A program made the translations under genes and the position numbers. This document shows positions 26,611-62,249 of a stretch of DNA of 64,000 nucleotides, one piece after another; position 1 is the first letter of the stretch, and each line of letters starts with the position of its first letter. The notes under the pieces were generated by a model, which saw nothing but the letters and a program-made list of their open reading frames with translations, did not search any database and was not told the origin of the DNA. The stretch comes from Astropecten irregularis (Eukaryota; Echinodermata; Asteroidea; Paxillosida; Astropectinidae). Where the stretch lies: NCBI GenBank assembly GCA_963971285.1, contig OZ020257.1, positions 14,646,602 to 14,710,601 on the forward strand. Direction: 5' to 3'.

Positions 26611-26642
<32 letters not shown>

Positions 26643-35322: not shown

Positions 35323-35405
35323 ATGGATATACTCGGAGCGAGCCAACGGGGAATCTCATGGCGAAAATGTCTACACCTCTTACACATTCTAGTGGCAATG
35401 TTGTG
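35323..35405 (+). CDS. Wnt: Wnt coding exon 1 (signal peptide)
   Basis: 83 bases from ATG to TTGTG|GTAAGT, a consensus-like donor. It encodes 27 residues and two bases of codon 28. The first in-frame ATG after TGA 35242 has A at -3 and G at +4. An overlapping frame in the same stretch is also hydrophobic but starts with TTG and stops before the donor. Only the frame used here joins to exon 2 as a signal peptide. Confidence 0.82.
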
Positions 35406-38400
35406 GTAAGTTGAAACAAACCTTATACCCCCCAAAAATCCATCCTTCTTTAATGTAGCCTACCCATGCAAGCCCCCTTGCCCAAAATAAACCTGCCCAT
35501 ATCATGTTCGTTGTTGGTGTTCTAATGTTTTGTGGGTCCGCGGGGAGTCGTGTAGTAACACCCTCGCGTGAACATACTGAACCGCGAAGCCAGGGTTCAA
35601 CCGCGCAGCGACGAGGGACCCAACTCCGCTGGGCCTGGGCCGGATGAAACCAGGGGCTGCGATTCTGATTACTTTTTCGAGCGGGAAACAGTTTCAATAT
35701 TTCCCTCGTCTTTGGTCTGCATTTTTTTAAATCGATCTTTTGCCTTGGTAGTAATACACCCTTGAACTTGCTATGTATTAAAGGTAACTTCATACTTTGG
35801 GTTTTGCTAAAGGAATACAGATTCATGGGCAAAAATATCCTATTGGGCAACCAGTGAAAACGCTCAAAGTGTATTTTCAAATCTATTCGACCAAAACTGT
35901 AATACAGCATTTAATGTTAACGGTATGTTTCTACAGGCATCTTCATACCCTGTAAGTTATAGGTAGGTCTAAATCTTGGAATATTTCTGTGTCGGTTTGC
36001 TACAGTCTGATGTTTACATTTAGGCATAAAGCAGCAACTTGTATACTTGCCACTGAAGTTTGTAGAAGAATGGGAAAAGCCCAAACTTCCGCTGTCATTT
36101 ATCTGATAGAGTGGCTTTGAGTCACAGTATTTTGTGTGATTAAAAATGATAGAAACATGATCGAGCCTGGTAAAATGTCAGATGTTTTATTGCGTTCCAG
36201 TTGAAACTGTTTGACTTTGGGTAATCCTTTATCAATAACATGAGCAATTGAGATATTGACAAACTATGTTAAGACTGGGTGCATTCTTCTTGTGCTACCG
36301 ATTCACGGCTCGAATTAGTCTGGCCTTTTCTTCTTCACACTAGTAGGGTATCCTTCAAAATGGAGGAAAGAGACGGCACATTATCAGAAGATTTATAAAG
36401 CCTTGTGTTCAATGATCACTAGACCTGAAACTAAACATCATCACCAATGCCGTCACATACATTGTGACTTGGACATTTTGGACAATACCAAAGGAATGTA
36501 ATGTGCCCTCTAAGCTCAGGCGGCGGGGAAAATGCAAAATACGGAGTATGAAATTATACTCCACATAATTTCGTTCGGTCACAGACACGAAGTTTGGGGA
36601 CTGAAGCGAATACTTTGTGGACGTTATTTCTATGGTAGTAGAGGACATTATGATGGTAGATCAGAACTGTGATGTGCCAATTTCAAGCAATTAGCAATAG
36701 GCCTACTGATATTAGCTGCCATGCCTAATTCCCGTGTTTGATGATTGGTATTAAACACCAAACAGAAATGTTAACAGATTTACGTATAACTTTATGAAGA
36801 TGGTGCTGGTACTGTAGAAACATATCGTTAAATATTTCCGCCTTAAATTGTGTATTTACCTAGAAATTGGTAAAACAAAGACCGAAAACCGTTTTGATCT
36901 CGTGGTAAAATCAAAACCATTCTTTATGTTTTATAAGAAAAAATTGGGTAAGTTTTTCGCTATTTTCTCGTGATTCAGATGTCCGATTGAGCTCAAATTT
37001 TCACAGGTTTGTTATAACATGCTGGATCAGACAAAGTGTGAGTGGTGCTCTGTTACCTTCACCAATCATGTATTATCACATATTGTCAATGGAGAAATGT
37101 GGCGTCTGTAAATGGAATCAGTGTTATAGAACTTGAATACCCAACATTTCGTCTGCATGCTGTTTCATCCGATCTTATGCCATTGGCTGGTTGCGCGTGT
37201 GTGCAATAGGCTGTCGTTAACCTACTCGTCTCTGTACATGCACGTGTTGCCAATGTTTTTTTGGCGGGATTCGTTGGCGTTGATATTTGTAGAAAATCGT
37301 CTGATCCATTCCAGAACAGGAAAGCGAAATGTTGTACCCAGTCATTATCGCTTGCAACAGCCGGACATGTGCATAAGTTTGCTGCGTATAGTTAACAAGA
37401 AACACAACTAGTGGTAGATTTGTTGAGACTACACAGCGTAGAGCCCATGTTTAGCAAATTACGTCAGTCGCCCGTAAGTGATGCTTATATTAATAGGCCT
37501 GCATCTGAAATCCCATCATGAGTAATGCTCCCTGAGATCAAAACTCCTGTGAATAGATTTGAAAATATCGTGGCCGTTTTTCACTATTTCTCAATACGTG
37601 GCCACTGTAATTTAGCAGATGACTGCTTCTGTGTCTTTCTTGATATTTTTGCCCATGAATCTGCATTTCTTTTGGCAAAACGAAAAGTATGAAGTTATTC
37701 CTTTATTACATAGCAAGTTCCATTAGTATTGAGTAAATCAAAACCGCTAAGTCTGTATACCAACTTCACTGATATTACTTAGCTCCTGCATCCGTTATAC
37801 AGCACTGATAACTATCTTTGATCTGTGATCGTGAACTAAGTTCAAACATCGGTTGTGGTTTGTTATCCAATCCTGCATTTGCGATGAGACATTTTTATAA
37901 GTTACTTGGTGACACTTCGACGGTTAAACTAGATAATGAATTAATACATGTATCTCGGTTACATTCCTGTGCTCTTTGGTGGACTATCCAACCGGTAGTT
38001 AGTTCAGCCTACTGAGAATGATTGAGAAATCGCCCGGTAATATTGCCCATATCCCGCTATCCTAAATTCCAAAGGCAACATCCTGAGAACCATCCAAGTC
38101 AAATTTCCAGGGTTATCTCAAAACGAGAGAGACGGGACGATAGCACCTGAAGTAGGCCTACGCTCTTCTTCGAGTCTTTTCAGTCACCTTTCAGTGGAAA
38201 TTACTTCTTTATTTCGGATTTGTGTGTCATTTGGAGTTTACCAGGTGATTAACACAGTCAAGTCTACAGACAGTCATTGTCTTGATATAGATTGACAGAC
38301 CATAAGCTCATTAAAGAAGATTGGTAAATATACAAGATATAGAATGTTGCCTGGCCAGACGTACGTGTGCCAAAGAACAAATGGATATACAAAACTGTTG

Positions 38401-41400
38401 GTTGTAATGTTCGTTATCGACAACGGAATGCATGTGATCGGGATAGTTGAGCGCATTACATCTTCAATATCAGAGAGATTAACTGATAAGGGGACATGTA
38501 AAATTAACCCCGTACAATTAATACGATGTCCTAATGTTAACCAATCTTTACCTGTGACTGGTGGTAATTCAAGATGGCAGACATTTTTTCAGAGTCTTGA
38601 AAGTACTTTTCTTTCGGAGGGAAGACCTTTCGTATGTGGTCACAGAGAAGCCAGAGGTGCTTCAGTTGTTTTGTTGCAAAACAGAGAGAGAGAGAGAGAG
38701 AGGGATTACAGTGTTGTTTAAAAACATCATTTGCTTACGCAATAAGTAAGTTCTATAATTCTCTTGCTCACGCTAGGTCAGACTGTTCACCTTGGTCGGC
38801 CCTGTAATTATTTAACTGCCTGGAGTCGGCCATAGTTCAGCAGGCAGTCGATATAGTTTGACCATTTTCGTTTTCACACGTTTCATTTTAACCGTCTTTG
38901 ATCGGACACCACCCTTTTTGCAATCATTGAACCCTTTCTGAATCATACCCCCTTGCTTAGCTTAAATTGGATATATGTAAATGCTGTATATATACACGTT
39001 CATATGTTCTAAATGATTTCCTCTGTGTGACATTATGCTGAGCCCCATTTCTTATCTTTAAGTGTGGGCCCCGAGACTGTGTTCGGGCGTGGTTCCCCCA
39101 CCTAAAGGTATAGCAGGCCCCCGTGTAATGGAAGTGACAAAGCAAATCCTGCATGGAGTTATTGATATTAATATCATTATTAAGACCAAAAATTGATCCC
39201 ATTGAGGTTTCGACACAACGCATGCGCGCTGAGTATGTTTGTTGGTCCTTCTTGTCTGCAGTAATGAGATCTGACTACTGCACAATGGGTTTAGCGGCAC
39301 GCCTATACGTGGATTATCGTTGAACACGCCCAGTTCAGGGAATAATCTATAAAACATGCAAACCCCAAACGGTACTTCTTTTTTTACGAAGTTATATCGC
39401 CTGGATCGTTTATTTAAGCCCCATATTTGATACGAATTTTCCTTTGTGCAGTTAAGTAGGCCTCGGTTCATTTCTTAAACTTTAATCTGCCCGTGTGGGA
39501 TGTAAAGGATTTGAAACGAAATTGACACAAAATATTATATAAAAGTAGGTCATAGCTTAATATTTAATGCTTGCTCGAGGCAGCCCATTCATTTCAGCGT
39601 GGGTGCGCCAATGGCGTCCATACCTGACCCTTTTATTTGAAGGACAAATTTGACTCTGGTATGCAAAGGTATATAACTAGAGCGATTCGTCAGCACGGAA
39701 CGGTTTAGTCACGATCGTTCCAGTCACATTTCTTTCTCCAAACATCTTTGATTGAACGAATGTGGGGGTTGTTGGTAACCACAAAAATGCTTCAACACCT
39801 CACCAATATTAAGCGACTTGTGGCTAGTGTTACGTCTGGCCACAGACGTGTGGTACAGAAACATAACGTGTGAACGAACAGACACGTACTAGAATGCAAT
39901 AGAACTTGGTCTACTTATTCGAATTTCATTCCATTTTAAAGTACCGTTTTGTTGATTTCCAAAGTTTTGTCATAAGAGATCTTTAGCATTACATTTTGTC
40001 CCTTTTTGCCTATGTGGTTTGTTTAAATTGCAGTATACATGATAGCCATTTTGTCTTATCGAATATGTGGTTGAAACGGCATCATTTTGGCCACATTGCA
40101 TAACTCGTATACCAGGTTAACTGGCCATCATCACATACAAAACTAGTATAATCGCTCTCTACTCATGTGTTGGTACTCGGCACCGGTTATCGTTGAGCTA
40201 ACCTTGGGTTATTCAAAGTAACCCGTGGTCTGACTCAAAAGGTAACTTGGGGTTACCAGGTAACTCTCTAGTTACCCTTATAGGTTACCTTGGACCGTTC
40301 TAAAGTAACTCTTAGGTTACACTTGGGTTAGGTTTGACTAACCCCCAGGCTTACCCTTGGTTTACCCTTTTGGTTGCCATTTTGGTTCCCCTAGATTTCA
40401 TGTTATGTCCACAAAGTCTGTCTTGGTAGATTTTGGACCGTCCGTCTATCACGCGCACCTGTTCAATAAAACGGTAAAGTTTACGGTGCTCCATTGTGGA
40501 TATTTTACCTTAAAAACGGAAATGTTCTGTTGTTATCTCTTCGCGTATTTCAAAAGAAATTTCCATAATTATGGAGTATCGGTGACGCTATTTGTGCCTT
40601 AAGTTAAGCAAAGCTCATAAGTTATTTGTTCGACTTGTCTTTTGGTCCTTGCTCTGTTATGCTTCAGTTAAGCCAAACCTGGATTCCAAGTGAAGACCTT
40701 TTCACCTTTTCAAGCGAAGTCAGTTAACATGGGAGCGGACAAAAGCTAAAGTGACCCCCTCCCTTGGAAACACAAATTCGGCGGTCATCAACCAGAAAAA
40801 TAAAACAGGCGCCGATCTTTGGCCACTGCACGGGGCTTCATAAATGCCTATGTACCGGCTTTCATTCCTGTTGTCAAAACAGTCCAAAGGAAAACGAATT
40901 GTTAGTTCAACCGTGGATCCATGTATCGGTTTGTATAAAACTGACACAGCATCTTGGTATAAAGAAAGCACGACTAAATACAGTCCATGGGATGAGATCC
41001 TTATAAACCATTTAACTCAGGACGAATTTGCAGCGATTAAGTTCCCTGCAGAGATGCATGGGGTATCGGTTATATACCGCTCTTTTGTCCGAGATCCAAT
41101 CTTGTTATACCGATAGTCTGCTCGGGATAATGGGTATCATCGCCGAGTCCCCTAATCCAGTCGATCCTCGAGTTGTTGCTGAAGTCCTTGATCTGTCCGT
41201 GGAGGAAGAGCAGGCGTCCTCTGGTGGTGTCGTCACGGTCAAACAGCCGGACAGTGTCTGGTCATTTGATTTCCCCTTTCCTGCTCCTATACTGTAGCAT
41301 AAAAGTGATACCAGGGGCCAATTTCATAGAGCTGCAAAATTTGCTTAAGCACCAAAAAAGCTTGGTAAATAAAATCAGTATGCCAACCAAAACTCCTTGT

Positions 41401-44400
41401 GAATGTTACATCCAGCAAACAATGGCCGACTTCAAGTCAAAAGCAGTAAACATCACATGAAAATTTGGTTGGCAATCATGTTTGACCAAGGAAGACTTTT
41501 AATGCTTAAGCAGATTTTGTGCTTTAAGCAGCTCTATGAAATTGGCTCCAGGTTGCGTCAATATCCACAGTGGATCCGTACCAGGGACGCGGTAGTGTTC
41601 CTCCTATATCAATTCGAAACCGACATGGTCAAGGAGCCCAAGAAAAACTCCGATATCCTTACTCCGTCAATCAATTACCGTTAAACCGTATACATTGCTT
41701 GGCTGCATTTCCAAAAAGGGACTCGCAACGCCATTGTTTCTTTCGTTTGTTTCTTTCGTTTGTTTCTTTCTTCTTTTACATCCTGTGAACTTTTCCGACA
41801 GTCCCAGCTTGAAAGAGGGCCGACCGTCTTGGTGGAGACAACCGGGCGCCCCGCCACGAAAAGTCAAAGGAGTGCCCACAGATCGATCACCCTTGTTTCC
41901 CCTGCACGTCCAATCGTGTTCGATAGGAGATCAACTTCACGAATTGTTCACTGAATTCAGTCTGAATCGCCTTAATATATAGATTGTCCCTGCTAGTACA
42001 TGCTATGCCCATGGGCCGCGGTGTCTGGGATTAAACATATCCATCTTATTCATTTCACGAATTCAGGCCGGGAAAGGGACATAACTTGGTATACATAGGT
42101 CTATATTTCGAAGGTTTTTGAGTCAGCTCATAGGAGAACTTGATGGAACCTGGACTTTTCCATCATTCCCTGCTCTTGTGTTTATCTGGAGACGCTCGGA
42201 GTCGACTGACGTGGAATGCTTTCCCATTCTCCTAGAACCATCTCTCAGGAGAGCTATTGCGTTATTATTTCGAAATTTCCTGAATTTCTGTCCAATTTTA
42301 CATTTTAGTTTCAGTTTAAGATGTTTTCTCTTCATTTAGATGAAAACTCGAAAACTCTCTCACTCGTGGCATAAAATATGCCTGTTTAAGTTTATGATGG
42401 TTACCAACCCGAGGGGCCAATTTCATAGAGCTGCTTAAGCAAAACGTGTGCTTTAGCATGAAAAGTCTTCCTTGATCAAACAGGATTACCAACCAAATGT
42501 CCATGTGATGTTTACTGCTTGTTGACTTGTAATCGGCCATTATTGGGCTGAGCATTATCATTTACAAGGATTGGCTGCCATAAGTCCAGTGCGGACAGGG
42601 CAAATTGCCCTGTCCGCACTGGACTTTTTTTGGGCAAAGTAACCGAGACACTGGGTACTTTACCCATTTTAAGTCCAGTGCGGACGTCTCAGGAAGTCTA
42701 CCTCTCAGTTACTTTGCCCGAGCCGCGCGGGTATTCCTACCGGCCAACTTCTGCCCGGGTAGAATGCCCGAGACACTTTACCCGAGACGAAAAGTCCAGT
42801 GCGGACAGAGCGAGTCGGGTACCCGCATGACCCTACACACTGTAGTATTGAAAGATCGGTAATTCTTCCGTGCGTGCACGGGTAAGTTACCCGAGTCAAA
42901 AGTCCAAGTGCGGACACCGGTAATATTTGCCCATTTTTCATTTACCCATCGGCTCGGTTAAATCCCCGGAAAAAAAAGTCCAGTGCGGACAGGGCGGTGC
43001 CGAATGAACTCTATGAGATTTGACCCCATCTAAACTCATCTCGCAATGGCGGAAACTAATTCATCGTTTATTTAGTTAAACAACTAAGAATCACGGTATT
43101 TCTGAGAATAGCCAGTCACCAGGTATGTTGAACTATATGCCTTAAACACGCGAGCACAAGTCTAATTATATTGACAAAGTGTTTTTCTCCCCCATAGCCT
43201 TCCGAACGAATGCGAAGCCAACGAAACGCCATTACGTTGTAGGATTTTCTTTTTGATGGCAAAAATCACATGGACATTGTTGAGTCGGTGCTTGAACCGA
43301 ACGCTGAGCTCGTCCTCGGCCGAACAATCAAGTCCTGGGACCGGTCTCATAGACGGGGGCAACTCGGAGGATGTTTTGACAGCGCACGAGGTGGACTGAA
43401 ATAGAGGAGGCAATTTGTGACTTAATTGGATACACCAACATTGTCACACGATTGACAAACTCAATCAAAATCCTAACCCCTGGTCTAGGTGATGGACCGA
43501 GCGAAGCCCGACCCCCGGCCGGCGTGAGTCGCTTATACGCCGTATACCGGCTTCTTGCCGTGTATGGGGGCAGACGCCGCGTCCTTCAGGCCGGTGTAAT
43601 GCCGCGTTTATCCCTGTGCATCTCAGGCATTGTGTCCTCCCTAGCTCACTTTTCATTTCAGCCATTCAACCTGGAATAACCAACAAGGTATTAGCCTTTT
43701 TAATAGGTTATGCAGGTGACGAAGCTGGCAACATGGGCAAAACAAACGAAGGTCATCTTTCTAAATTCATTTCTTCCTCTCTTCTAAAAAGTGATAATTC
43801 CATGGTTACTCAACATTGGTGATAGTGTGATTTGCACAGTGGGTGGAACTATCCTTTATCTTTGGGGGAACAGAATAATGCAAAATATTGACTGTCCATA
43901 CGACATACAATTACTGTCATCCAAGAGTTCAGTTTACTGAAAGTGAGAGACAAAAATGAAAAAGGGATTTACATTCTTTGCACGAACCATGAGTCGTTTA
44001 CCAAAATAGGCGTTCGCGTTCACAGGGAAACAAGAGGCTTATAACGATTCCTGTCTTGAAATGGATTTTATAACGAGTCAAAAAAATTTGCTTAGCACAA
44101 AAAATGTCTCGCCCAATAGAACAAACCACCATTGAAAATTTCATTCAATATTCATGGTTAGCGAACAACAAGCCAAAGAACAATCACAAGTGATACACAA
44201 CACATGGAAATGTGGTTGTTATCCCTGTTTTTATGAAGACAGAAATGTCATGCTTAGCAAATTGTTGTGCTTAACAGTTTTATGAAATTGGCTCTGCTTA
44301 ACTTCGATAGTTGCAATCCGATCATACAGTTTTCCCTATAATGGCGATATTTCAGGAGGAGACGATTAAAGAACGTGAATTTTATAAACTGTACGCTTTC

Positions 44401-47400
44401 ACCATGAAACTTAATTTGTTTTTTATGGAGGGGTGACAGTGTTAGGATGCCAATCAGTCGTAATAAACATTCCTATCATTAATTATAATGTTTGCATACA
44501 AAATATTGACTTCATCTGATTCGATGAACAACTGTGAAGGAAGATAATGTAGGCTTCACAAGACACATCCCACAAACCGAGCCCATATCTTAAGTAGGGT
44601 TTAAAGTTTTTGTCCTGAGGACGACTAGAGCACACTAGTCGAAACGTCGAGAATCCACTCTCATCGGTCCTTTTCAGGACCACACATCTCTCTAAAAGAG
44701 TATTATACATGGTGTCACCACAAATCTTACTCATTCCGTCTCTTTAGCATAACCCCTTCCCACGGTTATAATCGTTGGAGGTCGCGTTCCTCTTACACCT
44801 CATAATTTTAGTCAGCTATAAGTCAAAATTCCCATTTTTTATTAGAATATCAGACCCTTTGAAATATACCGTGATTTATTGGCTGCTCTTTATAGGATCC
44901 ATATAAATACCGCGCGGAATTTATCTCATTTGTTGGTTTTATTTGCCGATTGCCACAAACGTGAAAGGAAGATTAACCCTCCGAATTCCTAGCAAGAATT
45001 CATCCCTTGCTTCATTCACATCACCTTCTAAGACCCGTAACTCCTCGCTGAAGTAAAACAGTCTCCCTGCTTACAAACACGAGGTGACTTATTCGCCGCA
45101 CCGAACATAAATCCACGCAAACTGCCACCCCGCTTGTCAGTTCCGTCTAAATATTGCGCCCACTTTTTCATGACCGTCCCATGATTGTTTGTTAATAGCG
45201 ACCTATCCTTTCTCGAAGTGGGAAAAAGGACAGGCGATCATCTCTTGTGGAACTTAAATTCCCCATGATTAGGACTTTGACCGAAATAACGACCAGGATT
45301 CCGTCTCTTTACACCGAGATTTTGTCGTAATTTACGGCATTTTACTCTATTACGGTCTTTTCTGGTTTTGTTTGGGCCTCAGATCGACCGGGATCTATGA
45401 ACGTGAGCACCGTGTTGTCATTCGTGTTCAGACCGTAAACATACTGACGGACCGGTCCCGTGGCTCGCCGAAGAATTTGACGATCTGTCCCGTAGCCCGA
45501 AGCTTCGCGCCCTGCTCGCATGCCACATAACCGCTCTAGATCTGAAAACAGAAATGGCGTGAACATCATTCGACTTTTTGACTTAAATACAAATTGAAAC
45601 GTACAAACAGGACTTTTTCTTTTCAACTGGAACTTTATTGCAACAAATTTTCAAAAAATACAACCTGAGAGTTCCAATTGCTGTGTTGGCTGGCCATCCA
45701 GATACTGGGTCATTGGCACGGACAAAGTACTGTCTCTGGTCGTGTTTTTTTTTTTTTTCAAGAAAGTCGGTCAAATTTGAACGTCCATTGGGTGGTCCTT
45801 TATGTTGTTGACTCCGCGTGGTATTCAGAATGTTTATTTTCTTCATATATCAAACTCCCAGAGTATTATTTATGCTATACACATTCGTTATAAGGACAGT
45901 TTTGCTGGAGACTAATAGTGAAGTTCTTGATGCTCGATTCTAGTGACGATGTTATAAGTAAATTGAAGGGTCGGTCTTCTTTCCCTGGTCCTTGGTGTTA
46001 TTCAAATGCTGAGCATTTTTGGGCGTAATGACGAGTCAGAGCAAGTTGTCTGTAAGAACCAAACCGAACTAGAAGAGAGAAAAAAGAGAAAGAGTTTACT
46101 GCGTGCAAACCTTCAGTGAACTGATTGTATAACCTTGCAACGAAAACCTTCAAATCAACACTGCTAATGTACGTATACCATTATGTGCCATGTAAAGGGA
46201 TAATTGGAAAACCTCTGAGGTAACACATTAGTCAAGTCAGGAGTACAAACAATGTCAAATTTGAAAACCGCCTGCAACCTCGGGGGCCATCTTCATTGCC
46301 ATGCCTCGTAATGTCACAATGCAGAATGTTTCTACAACAGGCCTGACATTACACCGATGTGTGCAAGCCGTTTGTATCTGGCTGGCAACCGGTGATCTTG
46401 GACAAGGCTCCCGGGGGACGGGAACGGACCTACGCAACTGTAGTCGTGATGGTACCAGTTCTCAAACTGGACGGAACGTATAGTGTTTTCCTCTCGACTT
46501 TCCCACAGTAGATTTCCATACCTTTTATTTTACGTCATTGAAATATCAACGAAGAAAAATTGACTGGGACCGGATTCGAACCAGTCACCGCACTACCAAC
46601 TGAGCTATCCAGCCCTCTGTCGGCGGTGTCCCACAAATAGTCAATTATCTGTGTTCATTTGGCAGTTTTTGTGAGTGGTACTGGACCACAATTTGGTCTA
46701 AAATTGTAGCAGAGCGCCAACAAGCAATTATCCGTTCTTAAATGTTGCTGACAATGTTACAAGTTTGTCGTAATAGTTCTTTGAAGACAAAGGAACATCG
46801 ATTGTTTTCCATTCTGTGCTGTAGTCAGTACATGTTTATTTGTGTTTGTGTGCTTTTCCTTTACTATTTTTTATGGGTGTGGAGCAGCGAAAACCTAAAA
46901 CAATGTGTAAATACATCAACATTGAGCAATAATTTACGGGTTTTCTTCTATTTGCGAAATGCCGAGCTTGAGATGTATGGGGATGTTTGGTGCCTGCGTG
47001 TGTAAACTGTTGGGTGAGATAGAACAGCGGTCTCGATCCAACACAGCAAGCGGCCTAAGCACGCGCCACTGGGCCCCTGGATCGAAAAATCGTAATTCTA
47101 GTTTAAAAAAAAATTCTTAATAGGAGTAGGCCTATCCTATAAAGTTGGGGCACAATTTGTGAAGATGTTGCTGAAAATATTGATAAATTAACTATCAGCC
47201 ATATTATTAGGTCGTGAGTTTGTTTTGTGAGTGCTTTTTCTTGCTTGAAGTAAGGAGGGGCCTGACGTTTCGATCCGTAGCAGGATCTTTCTCAAACGTT
47301 TGCAGCAGTTTATTACCTGTTTTGTTCATTATATTTTGGTTAGATTAGTGTAAAATAGATCAGTTTTGCAACACCACAGGTGGCAGTTTCCAGGACGTAC

Positions 47401-49684
47401 GAGCGAAGAAAAACCATTCATCGTTCAATCATTCGCATCACTTTATCTGTAGGGGCCTCAAAACCAGTGAAAGAAGAATGTCTTTGAGCTGCTGATGGGT
47501 TGCCTTTGCGTATAGTGTAGTCGGTGGCACGGAAAACAAAATGACTTGTGTGATAAAGACCTTTGGGTCAGTGTACCACGTTTTGTCAACAATACAACAA
47601 GGAAACCAATAGTGACCGGGATCATCATGGTATGATTTTATTACTCGCACCTTACGAAGTAGCCTCAGTCGACCAAGCCTACAGCTGCATTTTGAAGGGT
47701 TTGGCTGGCTCGGAAAAATTATTATGAAGTCCAAGGGTTGCTAGTAATAGGTTTATGACGGTTCGTTACAGATGGTGTGGGTGGGCGGTACATTGCGTCC
47801 CTTTTCACATGCCCCTCGTTTCCTGCTCTCGAATTTAACCCGACCGAGGCTGCTTGGTAGCAAAGAGAATCAAAACAAGATGCCTAAAATGTATGCCACC
47901 CTGATTGCACACCAATTCTTCTGAATTTCATTCCGAACCGATTTTGCTCACCAATGAAGCAATTTTGATAAATTTCCGAAAAGTGACCCAAGGAGCAGAG
48001 GAACTATAAAGGTTATCCAGATTAAGACATCTCAGAAAGATATTATGTTAGAGTTCCATGCGGTACAAGTTGTAGCAGACAGTTTGAAAAACCTAAATAC
48101 AAACCACAACAACATCATCGAGAGAAACAAAAAAATTTGCAATGATAATTATGCCGGTTTCTTGTGTGGCTAAAAGGACACTCCGTATTTAATGTCTGGT
48201 CCCTAGACTACACACCATATACGAGCCGTGTTTGAAGCTGCTGCGCCCGACTACAGTTGTCTTTTGCAGTGGCGTAATGCAAATGGAACCGACCGAAAGT
48301 TTAAAGTGTGCTATCGGAAACGTGTTGTTTCGAGCCATAAATGTCCGTAAAAACACGGATTAACAACGACACAATGTTACCGTCGAGGGAGTAACTTCAG
48401 GTTAATATCTCGTCTGGAAATGAATGCCCAACTGTATTCAACTTTCATTGCAACTTCCGATATGTAAAGTCAGCAAATGTTGCAGACGGTCCCCCATGAC
48501 TGTACACAGTCTACGGGGAGTCACATGTATGTCGATACGGGGGGATTACGAGTTTTGAAACAAATGTTTAGTGGTATAAACTGTGTAACTGCAACATTTT
48601 TCTGTCTAGAATTCATGTAGGAAACATTGTACATGTACTTAAATTTTAATACCTGTACATTCTCAACATCGACTGTAATTGGAATATGACAAATTTTTCG
48701 GCATTCCTAGATTTAAATTTTATTTCCTCCAAGACAAGAGTTAACTTATTTGATGCAAGTCATGATGAACTTCAATCTCAGGAGTGAAAACTGGTGTAGC
48801 TTATCTAAAAAGTGAGATTTTCAGGTTTTTTTTTACCTACAACACTTCGAATGCAGCGGTAGCCATTTTTATCAAAACGCCCTCTGTTGGTCCCATAGGT
48901 TTGTGCACAAGTGATGGCCGTCAGTGGAATTCTTTCCCCACTCTGTTAGTCTGGTAGTGGTACCCACGGCCAAACCGATGAAGAGTCATATTTAGGTCAG
49001 TTACTTTACTGTAGAAGTTGCTGGGAATGGACTAATGTCCAGGAACACCCTTTTTTCTCTCTCTCCGAAAAAAGAACTCAGAAGGAAACTAACAAAAACA
49101 AAAATGGTTTACGATCACTCCTTTTGTTAGAATTTTGGTTACCGGTAAATATTTTTCTTTTGAACAAAAAGGCTGTTTTCCACTCTTAAGTTTAATTGGT
49201 GCAGGTATTAAATGAAGTGAAATCTTATCTTTGTGTCAAATTTAAATACATTTTGAATTACATCATTTATTGACTAGATCATGATGTGATGTGACCATAT
49301 ATTGAAGTACAGTGTTCCAAGAAAATCAGACATCGTTTTGCAATGTCGTGTTGTTCGGTTTGAGGATTGACCAATGTCAAAGTTTTGTCTTTTCTGCCTT
49401 CTCCTAAACCAGGTCCCTGTCTTCAGTCCATGCGCTTCGTACCAGACCAGACGGGCTCGGCGATTGGCACCTGTCAGAGGAGACCAAACGCTACTGCAAC
49501 TCACAGACCTGGCTCAGCATGCGCCAGCGGAAACTCTGTGAGCTGCACACCGATCTCATCCCCAGCTTGACGGATGGAATCCTGGCCGGCATCGGTCAGT
49601 GCAAACGCAACTTCAAGGAACGACGTTGGAATTGCCCGGTCAGCAATGTGACTGCCATCTTTGGACCCAGTCGGCTGAGAACAA
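35323..49684 (+). CDS. Wnt: Wnt ligand, 5' part (two coding exons; continues beyond the window)
   Basis: Exons 35323-35405 and 49413-49684 join in frame through a Trp codon (TG|G) to give the first 118 residues of a secreted Wnt glycoprotein, a Frizzled/LRP ligand. Residues 1-35 form a signal peptide: basic WRK, hydrophobic LHLLHILVAML, then WSLSSVHA, a good cleavage end. Mature sequence includes C56, LSMRQRKLC (C70), C91, the hallmark RRWNC (98-102, C102), an N-glycosylation site N106-V-T and IFG (110-112). It ends one base into a codon, where the GxRE(T/S)AF block of Wnts should begin. I could not find that next exon in the remaining 14.3 kb. The subfamily is unresolved: RRWNC-P and NVTAIFG recall Wnt3, Wnt5 or WntA, and LIPSLTDG recalls Wnt16. 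The two cysteines before RRWNC argue against Wnt8. Confidence 0.88.
35763..35898 (+). repeat. dispersed repeat, inverted partner of 37538-37720
   Basis: Shares GAACTTGCTATGTA, AACTTCATACTTT, CAGATTCATGGGCAAAAATA and TATTTTCAAATCTATTC, in order, with the complement of 37538-37720. About 50 bases are missing between the third and fourth blocks in this copy. Confidence 0.75.
36745..37071. mobile_element. TTAA-flanked MITE family, copy 2 (decayed ends)
   Basis: Aligns with the element at 4140-4497 through AACAGAAATGTT, GAAGATGGTGCTGGTA, AAATCAAAACCATTCTTTAT, TATTTTCTCGTGA, GGATCAGACAAAGTGTGAGT and CAATCATGTA. Both terminal repeats are lost or diverged. Confidence 0.7.
37538..37720 (-). repeat. 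dispersed repeat, inverted partner of 35763-35898
   Basis: The complement matches the upstream copy over about 130 bases with one extra internal segment. With about 1.6 kb between them, the two copies could fold into a long hairpin in the Wnt pre-mRNA. Confidence 0.75.
38682..38703 (+). repeat. AG microsatellite
   Basis: Uninterrupted AG dinucleotide run of about 11 units. Confidence 0.9.
40184..40375. repeat. GGTTAC/GTAACC-rich cluster
   Basis: About 190 bases contain over a dozen GGTTA, GTTAC, GTAAC or TAACC half sites in both orientations, mostly 10-20 bases apart (for example GGTAACTTGGGGTTACC). The cluster fades at its right end into TTACCCTTGGTTTACCC. It is either a degenerate tandem repeat or a dense array of one factor's binding sites. 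Confidence 0.6.
41131..41297 (+). other. coding-like open segment of unknown origin
   Basis: The frame ending at 41297 reads IAESPNPVDPRVVAEVLDLS, then an acidic and Val/Ser/Pro-rich stretch, with protein-like composition and balanced codon use. I do not recognise it, and no clear start or splice sites frame it. It may be a fragment of a captured or transposon-derived gene inside the Wnt intron, or chance. Confidence 0.2.
41314..41554. mobile_element. GGCCAATTTC MITE, copy 1 (both ends present)
   Basis: Inverted ends GGCCAATTTCATAGAGCTGC and the complement of GCAGCTCTATGAAATTGGCT match almost perfectly. CCAGG on both sides may be a 5-base target duplication. The interior is AT-rich with GCTTAAGCA near both ends. 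I associate this terminal sequence with repeats abundant in echinoderm genomes. Confidence 0.8.
42413..42577. mobile_element. GGCCAATTTC MITE, copy 2
   Basis: The left end GGGGCCAATTTCATAGAGC and the following GCTTAAGCA match copy 1. The right end is reduced to GGATTGGCTGCC, directly beside the AAGTCCAGTGCGGAC array. Confidence 0.7.
42582..42990. repeat. AAGTCCAGTGCGGAC module array with inverted ends
   Basis: Six copies of AAGTCCAGTGCGGAC (one with an extra A), at 42582, 42612 (inverted), 42671, 42792, 42900 and 42976. Between them CCCGAG and TTTACCC or GGGTAA recur. From 42607 to about 42994 the block has inverted ends: GCCCTGTCCGCACTGGAC on the left and its complement on the right. This suggests a transposable element preceded by the end of another copy. 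No coding frame. Superfamily not recognised. Confidence 0.65.
44064..44296. mobile_element. GGCCAATTTC MITE, copy 3 (left end decayed)
   Basis: The right end GCTTAACAGTTTTATGAAAT followed by TGGCTC and an internal TTTGCTTAGCACAAAA match copies 1 and 2. The left terminus has diverged. Confidence 0.55.
44611..44690 (+). ncRNA. hammerhead-like structured repeat (probable relic)
   Basis: CTGAGGA (fits CUGANGA), then a perfect 7-base hairpin CGACTAG/CTAGTCG with loop AGCACA, then AAACGTC. A second perfect hairpin, GGTCCT-TTTC-AGGACC, follows 20 bases on. GTCCTGA at the start can also pair with TCAGGAC in the second hairpin. This resembles the minimal type I hammerheads of Penelope-like elements, but the stem II register consumes a core G, so activity is doubtful. 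It is probably a fossil of a retroelement terminus. Confidence 0.4.
45342..45546 (-). other. possible minus-strand exon of unknown function
   Basis: Read on the minus strand, TTCTGTTTTCAG at 45558-45547 is a good acceptor. The frame that follows reads LERLCGMRAGREASGYGTD, then VYGLNTNDNTVLTFIDPGR, and ends at a stop at 45342-45344. Composition and codon use look protein-like. A second protein-like stretch (QYFVRANDPVSGWPANT) lies upstream on the same strand at about 45670-45735. I recognise neither. Confidence 0.25.
46561..46614 (-). tRNA. tRNA-like sequence lacking an anticodon arm
   Basis: The complement holds an A box (TAGCTCAGTTGGTAG, 46593-46607) and a B box (GGTTCGAATCC, 46572-46582). 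GGCTGG can pair with CCAGTC as an acceptor stem and GACTG with CGGTC as a T stem, but only about 10 bases separate the D and T regions, so there is no anticodon arm. It is not a functional tRNA gene. It is a shrunken tRNA gene or the head of a tRNA-derived SINE. Confidence 0.6.
47245..47304 (-). repeat. dispersed GAAACG hairpin repeat, copy 3 (best preserved)
   Basis: The complement reads AACGTTTGAGAAAGATCC, a short loop, GGATC, then GAAACGTCAGG. ACGTTT can pair with AAACGT and ATCC with GGAT. The order of parts mirrors a hammerhead core with two substitutions in CUGANGA. Confidence 0.55.
49413..49684 (+). CDS. Wnt: Wnt coding exon 2 (first conserved Wnt block)
   Basis: 272 bases. The acceptor CTTCTCCTAAACCAG ends at 49412 and the donor is ACAA|GTAAGT at 49685. 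It encodes residues 28-118, including the RRWNC signature. Its size and the position of its 3' end, just before the RE(T/S)AF block, match the second coding exon of many metazoan Wnt genes. Confidence 0.92.
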
Positions 49685-52432
49685 GTAAGTTTCAACTTAT
49701 AAACTCGGATATTTCAGAAGAATTGCAGTTTGCACTGAAGATAATGCACTGTAATAAGATGGCCCTAAAGGGACATCATAAATGGCAAGAAAATGCACAA
49801 TAGTTTCAACATACATGTATAAAGGTATATCACAAATAGCATTTTTACCAAAAGAGAGGGCGCTTCTGCAAAGCATTGTTGGATACTTCTTGGTCCATCT
49901 GCATATATTCACGTGACACAGTGCACAAAAGGTTTTCCTAGCAGCGCTGTTTTTGCCCAGGAAATGTTGGTAAAATGTATGGGAAATTTATCCATTCAAC
50001 TCCAGTGCTGCTCATGTATGACTTGAATTGGATGAATTGCCAGAATTGGACATGATTTTGAGATCTTAGGTTGATGCTGGATACGGAGTCTAGCACTCAC
50101 ACTTCAAACTGGCTGTGTAATTTGAATATTGAGACGTTTGGCATCGTTGGTATAGTATTCAAGGCTGTTACTGAAGCAAGAAAGATTAATTGCTGTTCAC
50201 AAGCCCCAAAGCTCAACTTCCCACAAGCCCATCCAGCAATATTTTACCAGGAGTGTCCTTGCGGTTTGCATTGCTACAGTGTGAATTCATAGGCATTCTG
50301 ATTCTTTGGAGGGAAAACGGAATAAATCAACTTGCCCCCCCTCCAAGTCGTCTTGTGATTCTGTCACTCTTGGCAGGCCAGGACACCTAGCATAGCTATA
50401 ATTCTTCGCATTCTGTAAAAAAAAACCCCAAAACACTGGCTTGTAGGCCAACAGTTTTTTAATTGTCATTGATGAATCTGTGTTTTGTTTTTCTCGCGGG
50501 TTGTCACCACCAGGGTTCTTGCTTCTGACTTGTTCAGTACAATCTACAGTATGTAGCACCAGACAGTAACATGCTAGCTCATTCTGTCATCTGAAGAGAA
50601 GTTGAGTCTTTTGGCAGTTTAACCCAAAAGTCTCCCAAACCTGCCTAAATTCATCTCTTTGTATTAGGGACTTTTGAAGGACAGTAAGTTTGTAGGCCTA
50701 TAGCCTAGGTAGTAAATTTACTAATGAAATCATCTTGGCAAACCCTTACCAATAACCACAGCTTCCCACCAGACCCATAAAAATATGCGTCTCTGAATCC
50801 ACATTCTTCATCATAAACTTCCTTGTCATAAAATCCTAGGTCACGACAGCTCCATAAATGAGGATATCCCAGTAATAGTAGGCCTATACTGACTTTTTTT
50901 AATGTAACTGTGACGTTTTTCCAACGATTCATTCCTGAATTTAATTGTTTTATTTTTGATGGGTGACTCATGGCGGGTTGCTTTAGACTGGGAGTGCCTC
51001 GGAAGAGGGTAAGGCTAGTCTTGATGTGCCCGCTCAGAGGGATCATTCCGTGTTCTCATTTCACTCAGTGTGGTTTGGGTTTATGTCCCAGTCATGTCTA
51101 CTTCCTGCCTCTATATCCATCGCCCCCCTCCTCCCCTCCTTCGTCGTTTTTATTATAATCAAATTTTCTTTTTGTGTGTTTGATCAGGTGCGTCTCAAGC
51201 AAACACTCCGTAGAAAATGTGGCAGTAATGTTTGTTTTATATGGCCAATTTGCATTTGATTCGTTGTTTGAGACAGGTGGGAGAAACTGGGCATAGATGT
51301 GGAGCCAATCCATAGCTCACTGTCAAAGTTTTTTTTAGGTTACCAGCACAAGTTGATGTTCTAGTTGATATGATTAGTTTGTCTGGTGATCTGCTCCAGC
51401 TCCACAGTATGGAAGCTTGGTCGTCCCTCCTTGTTGGCAAGAACCATTTTTTTCCTCAGCTTTGAGGGCCAAATTGTCTGTGTTCATCTTGGCCAGCTAG
51501 TGGTCACAGAGGTTGGTGTCAAGTTTTGCGAGGAGGATGTGTCAGACATAAGGTGGATCTGGATAGAGGGCACTTGGTACATCATCTTGACCATGTATCA
51601 TACAATGGTCATTGGACCACAAGTGGTCGAAAGCTTGTCCAGCTATTCAAAGGCATCTTCTATTGTCTTATCCCATTCATATCTCTGGAAATATTTGAGG
51701 TTTTGACTAATGAAGGAAGACGGCACCCCAATAACTTGCTGAAACATTGAGTTGACACCAGTTTCTTTCAACAACTACACTTACTCTTGGTATATACACA
51801 GCATGGTGTTGCAGAGCAATTGCCAACCACTGTAGTCAAACAAAGCATGCTATACTCCTCTAGACAGATTTATTGTACAAATTCCTTCATGTACACGTAA
51901 GGTGTTTTCACCTAAAGAAGTCAATAAAATACGTGTTTCAACAGGTAGTCCGTAGTTTCCATAAATCTTATATGGCTTGCATAGTTTATTCTTTATGTTC
52001 ATGTACTTTTATCAGATGCTCTTAAAATAACATTATAAACATATTTACATGCGATGAAGGTCACAAGATCAGAGACTGGGGGTCCAGAGCCGTGTGAAAA
52101 TGAAATATTTGAAATTAATGTAGCGAAACACACCCCAAATTCCATCCAGCTCCTACCCTTTTACGCATATTTTCTTTCACCCTCTTCATTGAGCCTCGTA
52201 AATTATTGAAGCAAATTGTATTTAAGCTGACCGGTTGTCCTTTGATGGGAAAATCCTTAAATAACATTGTCATTTTGTCCACATTTAGCAAAACAATCTT
52301 AGAAACTTGAATTTATGTGAAAGTAGTTGCCGGTTCTAAATGTCTTTCAACTTCCATCAAAGACTGGAGGAGCGTCATGAAATTGACTCTAAGGAAGGGA
52401 ATAGAGAGACCCCATGAACTAAATATGTTACA

Positions 52433-52610
52433 TAGGGCGTTTACGAAACAGAGGCTCAGTCTCCAGCTCTGTCATTCATGAAGCTGAAGCTCTGTTTTCC
52501 TTTTTAAACCAGAGAACCGCAGCCAAAAGGCTTTATTTTGATACCCGTTATTTCAGAATGGATTCACGAAATGGAGCCGGAGCCTGAGCCTCCATTTCAT
52601 AAGACCCCTA
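52433..52610. mobile_element. hAT-like MITE with TAGGG ends
   Basis: A 178-base element. The left end begins TAGGGCGTTTACGAAAC and the right end read inward begins TAGGGGTCTTATGAAAT. Both continue into GAGGCTCAG and CTCC, giving inverted repeats of about 36 bases. No coding capacity. Confidence 0.7.
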
Positions 52611-54449
52611 ACTGTGCCTGATAATGTATGTTGATGCTCAGTCTCAGTTTGCAACCAGAATGACACACTGCCAATGTGTGTGTGCTCAGCCTGTGTTGTC
52701 CATTGACGAACAATCACATGATTCCCGAAGTTGTTTTGACCAGTTGGATTTGATAATTGCCTTTGATAGAAGATCTTTATGAGAACTAATGTTTCACTCC
52801 ATGCCAGTAAACATTAGCTGGAAAACAGATTTAAATGGATACATTTGGTTACAATTTAGATTCTCGTTTTCCCTGTTCGTTTCTTTGTTAGCTTTAGCAA
52901 GAAACATGTTTGATCAACTTATTGCATACCTAGTCAGCAGGAGTAGCCTTCTAGCAGTAAATGGACCATTGTAAGGTTTTTAACTTTGATTCACCCACTC
53001 TGTGTTTGTAGGGGAATTAAATCTCCATTTGCCGGATGCATTCACTGGTTAGAGAAAGATCCCCCTCCATTTGATTTTCCCTGAGATTCCATTGAGACAA
53101 GAAGACAACATCATGTCAGGGTGACAGTTGAAAGACAAGCTGTTGCTTATTGGCAGGACAGGCCATTTGTCAATTGGCCAACAGGGAGGCTCTTGGCTTG
53201 AATCAGGCCTTCAGTGATTCAGGGCTGCCTGTTCTCCCTGTAGATGTCTCTCTTGAGACACATCAGGACTGAGGTGGGAGGTTTGATGACAGAACAATGA
53301 GAGGGGAGGAGTAGCTTTTAGCAGGATTAGCCCTGAAGGAGGCCATGCAGGCAGTACTAACTAGGAGGTAAACTCTTATTTTGAGGATTAGATGGATTGA
53401 GGGAATGATAGATGGAGGCAGACACAAAGGTCTTTCCTTCCTTTTAGGAGTTAGGGTTGCTGTGGTCAGTCTGACCAGTCCTAGGGGACCTCTTATAGAT
53501 GAGGCTTGGATTGTTTGATGTCCCTCTGAGGGATTATGACCTCCCTTTGATGTATACAAATTACAAATACATGAGCCTGTACTGGGAATTTGAAGTATAC
53601 ATCATTTCTTCCATGGTGCTTTTAGTTTGGGTCTTGGGTACTTTAGTTCATTTTTTTATTTCAAAGAGATACATGCACCTTCATCGGCCACATTTTAAGA
53701 AGGTGTATCCTGAGACAAAATTAGTTGGAAGATAAGTGTCTGCCTCTCACTCCTCAGCTCTATGTCAACATTCTTTATCCTTAAAGCCGCTAATGCTTAG
53801 TACAAGATTTTTTTCATTTAAGTGCATTCTCTTTGATGGCTTTTGAAGGCGATCAAGAAACCACGATGGCATTACGGCAGAGGGCTGAAAATGGCAATGC
53901 CCGACTGTCTAGGTGGTAAAACTGGCAATTTAGAGAGTTTGACTGGAACACAAAAACACTGTGTGGGACATGTCAAGATTATCTCTCTTTGCTTCCTCCC
54001 TGAAAAAAAAAAATACAGAGAAAAGAGAGCAAACCAACATTTAGAATCAAGACAGGGATCGTTCTGATGGACGTAGGATTAGTTTCGGATTAAAGAAATC
54101 TGTAAGAGTTGCAATTGCATTCCGCTTCAGTGCCAGTTGACGGGGAAACAAGCAGAAATCAGTGTGTTGAGGTGGAAATCTCCTCCGTGAATAGGGGGTG
54201 GGTGGATCACTGGATCTCAAGTAAGCAAACATCCATTCTTGGGAGGTTTTTCGCTGAAAAGGTTTTAAATAGATCCACCAACAGAACAAGGGAATGTGGA
54301 TTTATGGATGGCAGGGTGAAAGGAAGTGGGACTGAAAAGAGTACACAATCAGCAGAACCTCGGGAGGAACAAGGACTCGGAGGAACAAGGACTCGGGGAG
54401 TATGGGAAGCAGGGCGGTGTAAGTGATAGCCCAGGTAGCTCAGCATCAC

Positions 54450-55034
54450 CTTGATAGCCCTATAGCCATTGCCTCAGTGGCCTTAGCCATTGCATCATTC
54501 CCTTGGTGGCCCTGGACATTGCCTTGATGGCCCTTGTCATTGCATTGGTGTCCCTGGTCATTGGTCAATGCCTTGATGGTCCATGCCATTGCCTTGGTGT
54601 CCCTGGTCAGTGGTCATTGCCTTGGTGTCCCTGGCCATTGCCTTGTTTCTTCTGGTCATTGCCTTGATGGTCCTTGCCATTGCCTTGGTGTCCCTGGTCA
54701 GTGGTCATTGCCTTGGTGGTCCTTGCCATTGCCTTGGTGTCCTTGGTCATTGCCTCGGTGGCCCTTGCCATTGCTTTGGTGTCCCTGGGTCAGTGGTCAT
54801 TGCCTTAGTGGCCCTTGCCATTGCCTTGGTGTCCCTGGTCAGTGGTCATTGCCTCGGTGGCCCTTGCCATTGCCTTGGTGGTCCCTGCCATTGCCTTGGT
54901 GTCCCTGGTCAGTGGTCATTGCCTTAGTGGCCCTTGCCATTGCCTTGGTGTCCATGTGTCAGTGGTCATTGCCTTGGTGGCCCTTGCCATTGCATTGGTG
55001 TCCCTGGCCATTGCCTTGTTTCTTCTGGTCATTT
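54450..55034 (+). repeat. minisatellite with 21-base unit and higher-order structure
   Basis: Tandem variants of CATTGCCTTGGTGTCCCTGG over about 585 bases. A longer marker, CAGTGGTCATTGCC, recurs at 54608, 54699, 54791, 54840, 54910 and 54960. Its spacings (91, 92, 49, 70, 50) equal a 49-50 base unit plus zero, one or two 21-base units. The unit is a multiple of three and lacks stops, so long + strand frames arise in all three phases; these are by-products, not genes. Confidence 0.9.
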
Positions 55035-55906
55035 TCTGTGAAAATGTCCCCTTCCAACTGAGATTGAGCAACAGTTCCTGGGGCTGAAGGGTGAAGGAAA
55101 ATCCAAGTGAACTCCTGAAGTTAACTTTGATGTCAGAGTCGAATTGGTGATCAAGAAAGCAGTCTGTTTTCTTGGTTTGCATTTCAGAAAGAGAAACTGT
55201 TTTCAGTTTTAAGTAAAGCAACGAAGAAGAAGACTTGTCAGCAAGTGTTTTCATTTTCCTCCTGAGGGTTTGAAATCTCTCTTAGGGGATATACATTGAC
55301 TTGCATACGTGTACTAGACATGCTGTCCCCTAGGTGACTTACATACATGTACAACCTTTACCCCGTCTGTCAGTCCTGGATTGTGGTTTAACACTTGATA
55401 TCCCAAAATATATGCAATAATTCTCAAACTTGCAATGCAATTTTTGGTCCTGCATGAACGTAATTCGGTGCCTGGGGGCCATCTATCTCGGTGTACGCTC
55501 GCTCAGGTCATCCATGGAGAAAGCCAGACTGTAGCATGTATGGAGTATTTTCTTATGCGGCAGGTGCAGGAAGGATGTTGTGAACTTCCTTGGAGGAGTG
55601 AGATAAAATTTGTAGGATTGCGGTTTGAGGCCTGCATTACTGTCTCAACCCCCCTCCCTCCCTCCTTGGCTCCCTCCGCTGTAATTCTGGTCTGCTGGGC
55701 TCAGATTTCACTAAACTATATCAGTTTGGAAACATACACTGATCACCACCGGGGTTTCAATTCAGAAAAACCTGTCAGATAAGTAATTGTCGTCTAATTT
55801 GATGAAATCCCCCACCCCAAACATAAGGCAGGAGATATGTGAGGTTGGAGTGAATTAGGTCGTGGTTGTATTCATACTTTTTGACGAGAATGCATACCTT
55901 TTTATG

Positions 55907-55928
55907 AGTACTGTACAAGTACAGTACT
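55907..55928. repeat. perfect palindrome in an AGTA-rich patch
   Basis: Arms AGTACTGTAC and GTACAGTACT separated by AA, followed by further AGTATGAGTA variants to about 55978. Confidence 0.8.
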
Positions 55929-58900
55929 TTTCACGAGTATGAGTAATTTTCCCTGTAGTATAGTATGAGTAGTACTACAACACCGTTTTACACAAGTGCC
56001 TGAGCCCCCAAGACATTTTCTGAATAAAAAAATCCATACCATGCGGAATCAGCATTGCACATTCTCTGGACTTTGACAAAATTAGGCCAACAAGCCCCAT
56101 GTGATGTTACATTGTCTTGACTCAACTGTCATGAGTCTTCCAACTACACCAGAAATTATTCAATTGGATTTGGGATATTGAGGATTTTGATCGACTTCAT
56201 GTTTCACATCCATATAGAGCACATGTAGTAGATGCATTATGAACAGTGCATTGGTGCAAGTCCATGTATAGTAATGCCATTGTAGAAGCATGGACTGTAC
56301 ACTAAGATAGTAGGCCCTATACTTAACAAAGGCTTGTGGAAGTGTTTAAGATTGGATATATGTAGGCCTACGTGTACCACTGACTGAACATATGATTGTG
56401 TCATTTACTGCTTGAAGCCTAGTTTTTTCCCATACTGTCTCTGTAACGACCGAATCCAGACAGACGCACAGACACGGTAGGGTCTTTCTTTATTTCACAC
56501 AGACCCTCGCAGACATTCCGGTTAGACACGCAGACAGTAAAACGTAGAATCTGTAGCAGATTTTACAGCTCGTCTGCCACTGCTTTGGGTTTTTTGTATT
56601 GTATTACTCGATCTCCATGGAAACTAACTTCTTTTCATGACGTACATGTTTGTATGTCTCTATGATCATTTCAAACCGATTGACCATGTATACAAAGTCT
56701 TGATCTGTATGGACGAAGTCAGTGAGTTGGTTTGACGGGTGTGCTAAAGTTTTGAAGCAAATCTCTCCTAATTGAAAAGGCTCTCATCAATAGAGGAACC
56801 CATCAATGTGCAACCACATACCTGAAACTCACTTGTGGTCTCCATTGACACCAAGAAGGCAGTGGAAAGGGAAGTGGGGAAATTTTGTTTGATCACTTGA
56901 GGGTTGGAGGAGTCAGTACGGAGGTCTCATTTTCTGCTTCATTAGGATTCATTCCCTGGCTCAATAGTCCTGGATGATGCTTATTCTGTTTGGACTGGAG
57001 TCCCAGTCCCAGAGGAGCTAGTTATTCCAACACTTGGGCTGCTCAGTCTGTCGAGACTGCACAGTCAGGAATCTGAAAGACCCAAGTAGAGCTGTGTTTA
57101 AATGAAAGAAAATGAAAGAGCTCTCCTGAGACTGAGACTGACAATTGTAGAGAATCCCCTGTCTGACTGATTGTCTCTCCCCCTCTCTGAATCTCTGAGC
57201 TGATTCAGGTGAAGTGATGTCAGTCGACCATCAAGGATACACTGGCCATTGATCCTATTTTCTCTTCTGTTCACTCTGTTTGGCCACCGTGGTGCTGTCA
57301 GTGATCTCAATACATAATTCTGACAAAGATTCCTAAATATAGACGTATTCCTATACTCATTAGTGCCTAGTTAGAGAAAAATTCTAAGGTGGAAATGTAG
57401 AAATTTTGGAAGAGGGTCTAACACAGGTGCATTTGTGTGATATTTACCATAGGTTAGTACTGGCATTTCTTCTTTTCAGCAGGTAGAGTGGAGCCTCAAG
57501 GCATGCAATGACCCACCAGACCAACATGTAATTTTACTAGATTGTTGGTGCAGGTGTTCAGACTTTCACTTGAGATCGAACCAGCATTATTTGTCCTGGT
57601 CATTCTGATTAATGTGGGTAATTCAGAGAATTGGGTGGGCAGGCCGTCCATCTGTTCAAATCCAGACAGAAACGGACAAGCTAATAATCAGGTTTCAATG
57701 GTCAGAGGAAGGTAGCACCCGGCCAACAAGTGTCGCTGGACAGCACATGTTCAACACTTTTTTTCTGTGGTTATAACGTCTTTCTTGATATGTACAATTA
57801 GGCCCCCTACATGTATCATAATAGGTCTTATACAATGATCTCACTCTGACTGGCCTGCAGAATTAGTCATGTGGTCTTGTATTAATCAGTTTGATGGAAT
57901 TCACAAAGCTCAGATCCTGGCGCAGGTCTTGTCTTCCAAACCCCAAATACTATTTATCATTTGAGAATGCAGCTTAAAAATTTGTCTGCAAGTTCCAAAT
58001 TGGACTGGATGGGTAAGGGGATGTAGGTCAGTGATGTACATATCGGTCTTTTCCCAAGGAAGGCTCTGTATTGATGCTTGTGGTGATGTGATCAGACTCA
58101 CCGAGAGCTTGGGGCGAGGGTTGCACCAACCAACCAAACCTTCAGATCCATAAATCATGCCATGGTACTCTTGCTGGCAGCTCACACACTGCAAACATAC
58201 CCAGCCACATTGAACCAGCGAAATGCTGCAACGGTCTCACCTTCTTGGACCAGCTCGCTGCTCATGGCCCCGTCAGGTCTCAAGGGTCCCCTCACATGTC
58301 TGCACCATCACTTGATTCTGTCAGGCAAGATGGCAGGCATGTCTGGTAACAAGGTTTCAGGGGCACACAGGCAGAAACGCAGGAACTCCCCGCTACATGC
58401 AGGTTTCTGTTTAGGTGTGAGAAACTGTCAAATGTCTCAATCCTTAGTACTGCATAACAACAGCCAGCTACGCTCATTGATTGATAGGGACTGGTTCTGC
58501 ATTGATAGACTGACTGGTTGTTGTAGCCAGGAGGTGGATCATACAAGTATACATTCTCCAAGGGTTGATGGAAATCTTAACTGGCTGAAAGATGAATCAG
58601 ATTTTGTTTCTTGTCCAGGTGCTTTTACAGGCTTCATCTTACCATGAGCAAAATATCTAGACAAAAGAATTATGTGATCATTTTCATCTGTAGACTACTT
58701 TTCTCTGGCTTAAATTTTGCATGGTGCAGTTTGAATTTACTGAAATAACTATGGCATGTGAGTTACATTTAAGTTGAAACTAGTGAAGCAATGCAATTAA
58801 TGTAGCTGTGACCTATTAATATATTGAACAATTTACTCAAGATGGAATCTATGAAAACAGGGTGGAGTCCTGTAGGGTGTGTAGAGGGCCAGATCCCTTC

Positions 58901-59399
58901 TCCTAGGAAACCCTGCCTTCTTTTATAACACTTACAGTGTCGTTGACTGAGCAGTCAGCACTGTAGGCCCTACCGTGTTGGGTGACACCTATAGCTACCT
59001 CCATGCTTGTACTGACAACTTACAAGACCTCGCATCAGGCCGTAAAGCATACCTTACTCGGTCAGCTAGGTCTCAAACTCAGTTACAAGTCACAGAAACA
59101 CAGACAGCTTAAGCTAAGTGCACATTTTGAAATTGAACGAGTTATCAGTTACACAGCACCCTGCTTCAAAATCCGACTGGCTTGCATCTTAATAAGTCCA
59201 GTATTTCCAGTTTAGTGCTCTGCTGATCAGAGCAAAGGATATGTGCCCAGACTGCCGTATTCCCACAGGGGGCATCACAAGGCCTAGCAGCCTGGTGCCA
59301 GCACCTGTTCTGATGTAGCAACTTTGTAAACTGGAAGGTTTATGATATGTTTAGTGTGTAAGGTTTGGATTAGTACAGGACTAGGTGATTATAGTGATC

Positions 59400-59455
59400 A
59401 TTCCATCAGGTTGGGGCAGGAATTTCATGACATTATCCATTGCTCATGTAGCTAA
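59400..59455 (+). repeat. short dispersed repeat shared with 14.65 kb
   Basis: CATTCCATCAGGTTGGGGCAGGA and CATGTAGC match the region near 14655. Family unknown. Confidence 0.4.
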
Positions 59456-62117: not shown

Positions 62118-62178
62118 AGCGCACGTGCACGCACTCGCACAACAACTGGCGCATGCTCTCAGTTGCGCGCGCATGCTC
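62118..62178. repeat. alternating purine-pyrimidine patch
   Basis: GCGCACGTGCACGCAC and GTTGCGCGCGCATGC lie within 60 bases, an unusual local CpG-rich, potentially Z-forming stretch in AT-rich DNA. Confidence 0.5.
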
Positions 62179-62249
62179 AGAAATAGCAAAAAAGAGACTT
62201 CAGTCTGCTGCCGCCAACGTCTCAAAAGTCTCCCATTTTGCTAAGCAGC

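Follow-up and report, generated by a model that had tools for sequence, protein, structure and literature searches.

Wnt genes of the sea cucumber Holothuria glaberrima have, in the part of their published description used here, 4 to 6 exons with long introns; in all but Wnt5 the first exon is smaller than the others, and sizes go down to 59 bp for exons and up to 21,268 bp for introns (PMC9957329). The gene that is the subject of this analysis is built in the same way, and its 83-base first exon and 14-kb first intron are ordinary, because the H. glaberrima genes, as far as that part of their description goes, are alike (PMC9957329). More generally, a short first coding exon followed by a long first intron is usual for the Wnt family; these are known features, in an ordinary gene. 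Two further comparisons are close. With the WntA subfamily of echinoderms, hemichordates and protostomes the gene shares the full Wnt domain, its membership being proposed by elimination of the other subfamilies. With the Wnt7 gene of the same genome (at C1:17.2 Mb) it shares the opening of exon 2, a phase-2 split codon followed by ALSSVVALG in Wnt7 and by SLSSVHALR here, and Wnt-7a is also the best match of its protein in the PDB, but in the tree described below it lies outside the Wnt7 pair. A literature search on the first-exon and signal-peptide structure of Wnts, judged by its listing, found nothing on the question.

The window (the whole stretch of DNA analysed, 64,000 nucleotides, at C21:14646602-14710601 of a 475.7-Mb genome) contains two exons that we read, with a probability of about 0.9, as the beginning of the coding region of a Wnt ligand gene with four exons, most likely WntA, in an echinoderm resembling a sea star (Table 1). 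The sequence-only reading had joined these two exons through a single Trp codon, and this proves correct to the base: the codon is divided TG/G by a phase-2 intron and becomes Trp28 of the joined translation, MDILGASQRGISWRKCLHLLHILVAMLWSLSSVHALRTRPDGLGDWHLSEETKRYCNSQTWLSMRQRKLCELHTDLIPSLTDGILAGIGQCKRNFKERRWNCPVSNVTAIFGPSRLRT. The elements that it described along that translation are all there: basic residues (R14 and K15), then the 11-residue hydrophobic core LHLLHILVAML, VHA, and a Wnt block with RRWNC. The ATG of exon 1 is in good start context (AAATATGG), and the Pfam wnt model matches residues 60-112 of the joined exons at E 1.6e-9 and 38.1 bits (cut-off 20.3). Splice scores at the junction, computed from splice-site frequencies, are good (donor 5.7 bits, acceptor 5.9 bits). 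The exon 1 DNA has one match across the 475.7-Mb genome, which is itself, and this rules out its being part of a repeat. (A dispersed repeat does lie nearby, at window positions 35761-36000, starting ~360 bases 3' of exon 1; of 2893 first-look candidates 40 were scored, and these gave 48 further matching places, including one in intron 1, and short frames akin to it (MLTVCF...) were met in the scans 5' of Wnt7 and Wnt16.)

Table 1. Features of the predicted Wnt gene; positions are those of the window unless a contig is named.
Feature	Position	Strand	Description
Coding exon 1	35323..35405	+	83 nt (2 mod 3), ATG...TTGTG, donor gtaagt; start codon; basic residues and hydrophobic core of the predicted signal peptide; TG of the junction Trp codon
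Intron 1	35406..49412	+	14,007 bases, phase 2, gtaagt...ccag
Coding exon 2	49413..49684	+	272 nt, ccag then GTCCCTG...GAACAA, donor gtaagt, ends in phase 1; end of the predicted signal peptide (SLSSVHA), Wnt domain start to RRWNC...LRT
Intron 2, first 14.3 kb	49685..64000	+	total length 40.1 kb
Exon 3	C21:14736409-14736698		outside the window, ~40 kb past exon 2; Pfam wnt 85 bits
Exon 4	C21:14748280-14748741		outside the window, ~52 kb past exon 2; Pfam wnt 187.7 bits

Joined, exons 1-4 make 1107 nt encoding 368 residues; the intron phases (2-1-0) fit and the frame is open to its stop. Mature Wnts typically have about 24 conserved cysteines and carry the acylation motif CHGxSGSC. The 368-residue protein has 25 cysteines, one of which (C16) is inside the predicted signal peptide, leaving 24 in the mature form, together with CHGVSGSC (Ser231) and two N-glycosylation sequons. 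A phmmer search of the PDB matched 11 distinct sequences, the best being Wnt-7a (7.1e-79, residues 55-367). The Wnt domain over the curated cut-off, the cysteines, the acylation motif and the predicted signal peptide together place the predicted product in the Wnt ligand family (PF00110). Neither exon had looked complete by itself in the sequence-only reading, and exon 2 indeed lacks a usable start, its first in-frame Met being residue 64. Translation from that Met, with intron 1 joining untranslated sequence only, would cost what should be a secreted Wnt its signal peptide along with C56, the first of the Wnt cysteines, and with that loss a start inside exon 2 is rejected, its chances being negligible.

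The proposal that 35405/49413 is the true junction also draws support from the signal-peptide score of the joined N-terminus. With a von Heijne matrix, used with a hydrophobicity window, this N-terminus scores 10.5, with a hydrophobic maximum of 2.27 and a predicted cleavage after VHA35. Yardsticks for the matrix are WNT1 (13.6), albumin (10.0), WNT3A (8.2), WNT4 (6.8), WNT7A (2.7) and actin (-2.2); matrix and cuts are thus imperfect, and a true Wnt can score under the cut of 3.5 that was used, as human WNT7A does. Taken alone, the score is a weak test, because exon 2 itself contributes the VHA site. Upstream donors were scanned for those whose frame yields an ATG exon joining exon 2 in phase 2, the cuts being a signal-peptide score of at least 3.5, hydrophobicity of at least 1.8 and, among donors of at least 3 bits, a donor score of at least 4. 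Six ATG candidates turn up between 28701 and 49412, and only 35323-35405 passes every cut. Seven control stretches (135,934 bases) were taken from the antisense strand, from intron 2 (parts of it, in both orientations) and, again in both orientations, from the sequence 5' of the large open frame of the neighbouring gene; at donors of at least 3 bits, two candidates pass there, which are nested ATGs sharing a donor at 4106, and none reaches a signal-peptide score of 10.4.

Relaxing the donor threshold to 0 bits changes this picture. Five plus-strand exons of 1-49412 then pass the signal-peptide and hydrophobicity cuts, as do five antisense exons of the same interval and, in four intron-2 stretches taken on both strands, 2, 2, 3 and 1 exons (8 in total). 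Two antisense exons reach signal-peptide scores of at least 10.46, and the one that also passes on hydrophobicity has a donor of 2.0. At lax donor thresholds the signal-peptide test has no discriminating power by itself; it is the combination of a strong donor with the signal-peptide score that sets 35323-35405 apart. The four other plus-strand exons, ending at 4106, 6835, 46974 and 48616, are what might be said for a true first coding exon elsewhere, for example further upstream, with 35323-35405 as a chance open frame. Their donors, however, have only 0.4 to 4.3 bits, where that of 35323-35405 has 5.7, and their signal-peptide scores are lower too (6.4 to 8.3, where it has 10.5); two of them sit 5' of the large open frame of the neighbouring gene, and in no case is the last codon the split Trp of 35323-35405, all of which makes such a misassignment very improbable. 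Less remote, though still unlikely, is the existence of at least two alternative first exons with differing signal peptides or 5' ends, of which 35323-35405 would be one. Some vertebrate Wnt genes have alternative first exons, and a 14-kb intron leaves room for them, but no second exon passes the cuts in 28701-49412 at donors of at least 3 bits; this arrangement would in any event be compatible with 35323-35405 serving as a first coding exon.

The best support for the 35405/49413 junction comes from comparison with the remaining Wnt genes of this animal. The Pfam wnt model finds 43 matching places in the genome, which were read as 13 genes, and in 11 of the 12 others the best-scoring exon-2 acceptor with an open frame is in phase 2. 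That was so in all ten of the genes first examined (weakly in Wnt9, at 1.6 bits, and Wnt10, at 2.6) and in Wnt4 (7.6 bits), the exception being Wnt8 (phase 0, 9.8 bits). This shared phase, the splice scores and the full-length frame all favour the junction first put forward in the sequence-only reading, and we infer the splicing itself from the sequence. These acceptor phases, together with the sea-cucumber description, as far as the part of it used here extends (PMC9957329), rule out a new kind of gene structure.

First exons were also scanned for in ten of the 12 paralogues (Wnt1, 2, 3, 5, 6, 7, 9, 10, 11 and 16), up to ~9.5 kb upstream. Exons passing all cuts were obtained for Wnt2, 5, 6, 9 and 10, and the best ones for Wnt1 (signal-peptide score 2.7), Wnt11 (3.2) and Wnt16 (donor 3.8) each miss one cut; we judge these last three to be plausible predictions despite that. 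Nothing convincing appeared as a first exon within ~9.5 kb of Wnt3 or Wnt7, and no candidate within the 5.9 kb upstream of Wnt4. The split codon is again Trp in the predicted junctions of Wnt1, 2, 5 and 6, and Trp stands beside it in those of Wnt11 and Wnt16; GRWW, LWWAVGSPL and WMWLGIAS at predicted junctions match what we take to be the corresponding stretches of human WNT1, WNT6 and WNT16. Predicted cleavage precedes the junction in all eight plausible paralogues and follows it by 7 residues in the window gene, and with this difference in cleavage position the N-terminus of the window gene would not be a copy of those of its paralogues. It is possible, if only tentatively proposed, that the product has lost an ancestral cleavage site that preceded the junction and is cut instead 7 residues past the junction, in the part encoded by exon 2, with the consequence that the inherited phase-2 intron here cuts the signal peptide itself. 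(On C16, Wnt9, Wnt1 and Wnt6 lie within ~0.1 Mb, at 12.45-12.55 Mb, and the contig also carries Wnt10 5 Mb off, at 17.6 Mb, and Wnt3 12 Mb off; this is the known Wnt cluster, loosened.)

In the mechanism that we propose, exon 1 would supply the start codon together with the signal peptide's basic and hydrophobic segments, the cleavage region and the first cysteines of the Wnt domain would come from exon 2, and removal of the 14-kb phase-2 intron would bring TG and G together as Trp28. The signal peptide, having routed the ligand to the secretory pathway, would be cleaved off, probably behind VHA35. The place of the intron is inherited within the Wnt family and is no novelty. Sequence, frames, phases, the full-length open frame and the acceptor phases of the paralogues are directly observed, and it is from these that such a function is suggested. 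The practical outcome is a likely correct start for this Wnt gene model, whose first exon, at 83 bases and 14 kb away, is easily overlooked by gene predictors. The phase-2 first intron, common to nearly all Wnt genes here, can help to locate the starts of others; general knowledge of Wnts is unchanged by the finding of exon 1.

The assignment to a subfamily is by elimination. A tree was made from the 13 genes, eight human blocks and two sequences copied from PDB alignments. It pairs ten of the genes with Wnt 1, 2, 3, 4, 6, 7, 9, 10, 11 and 16, at ultrafast bootstrap values of 92-100; the other three, among them the window gene, stay unpaired. BLAST best hits agree with the tree for eight of the ten paired genes; the C16:17.6 Mb gene has Wnt3a (230) ahead of WNT10B (219) by BLAST and is paired with WNT10B, and the C27 gene has WNT4 (221) ahead of WNT11 (195) and is paired with WNT11. 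One of the unpaired genes, at C1:27.5 Mb, has Wnt-5a as its best PDB match (1.7e-116) and another, on C28, has Wnt-8 (2.2e-91). For the window gene no subfamily is markedly best (Wnt-7a 268.8 bits, Wnt-3a 249.7, Wnt-5a 249.5); it is on a long branch (1.59) and pairs with none of the ten reference subfamilies, which do not include WntA. Because the 12 other genes go to named Wnts and the window gene to none, it is most likely WntA, the sole remaining one of the 13 ancestral subfamilies. All 13 are given, single-copy, for the starfish A. planci, in the part of that account available to us (PMC6390002). Wnt2 (C1:21.8 Mb) and Wnt11 (C27:14.19 Mb) are both present in the genome analysed here, as against the loss of both in echinoderms that is given in the portion used of another source (PMC11414264). 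Their presence was dropped as a new contradiction of that loss, A. planci having all 13 (PMC6390002) and H. glaberrima having Wnt2 (PMC9957329), again according to the parts of those papers drawn on here.

The host class, too, is something that we infer, in this instance from mitochondrial sequence. In COX1 on contig C168, all four AAA codons scored stand at positions where Asn is expected, there are six AGA and no AGG, and ATA occurs in the opening D-I-GTLYLIFG where Ile is expected. Translation of this contig, with its genes recognised by eye, puts ND4L in the space that separates COI from COII and shows ND1 and ND2 to be inverted, with tRNA genes between the protein genes. AAA as Asn, ATA as Ile, AGA as Ser and this gene order are what we take to be features of sea stars (asteroid echinoderms). 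The code and gene order of C168 agree with that pattern, which would point to an asteroid host, and the 13 single-copy Wnts of A. planci, on the part of the account cited above, fit as well (PMC6390002).

Two other COX1-like stretches were encountered. The one at C25:9951047-9952018, on a large contig, has seven TGA and probably represents mitochondrial DNA copied into the nucleus. At C131:32162-33484 there is a full-length COX1 frame (552 residues) that is free of stops under the standard code; it is possibly of bacterial origin. Within the window, a long open frame on the same strand lies 5' of the Wnt gene (24514-28662, 1382 residues between stops). It has a single C2H2-like finger, returned no match in a search against Pfam, and is presumably ZNF608/609-like. 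Intron 2 contains what appears to be a tandem repeat, at window positions 54528-55061, with a 177-residue open frame of a repeated motif (CHCLGVPGQWSLPWW...).
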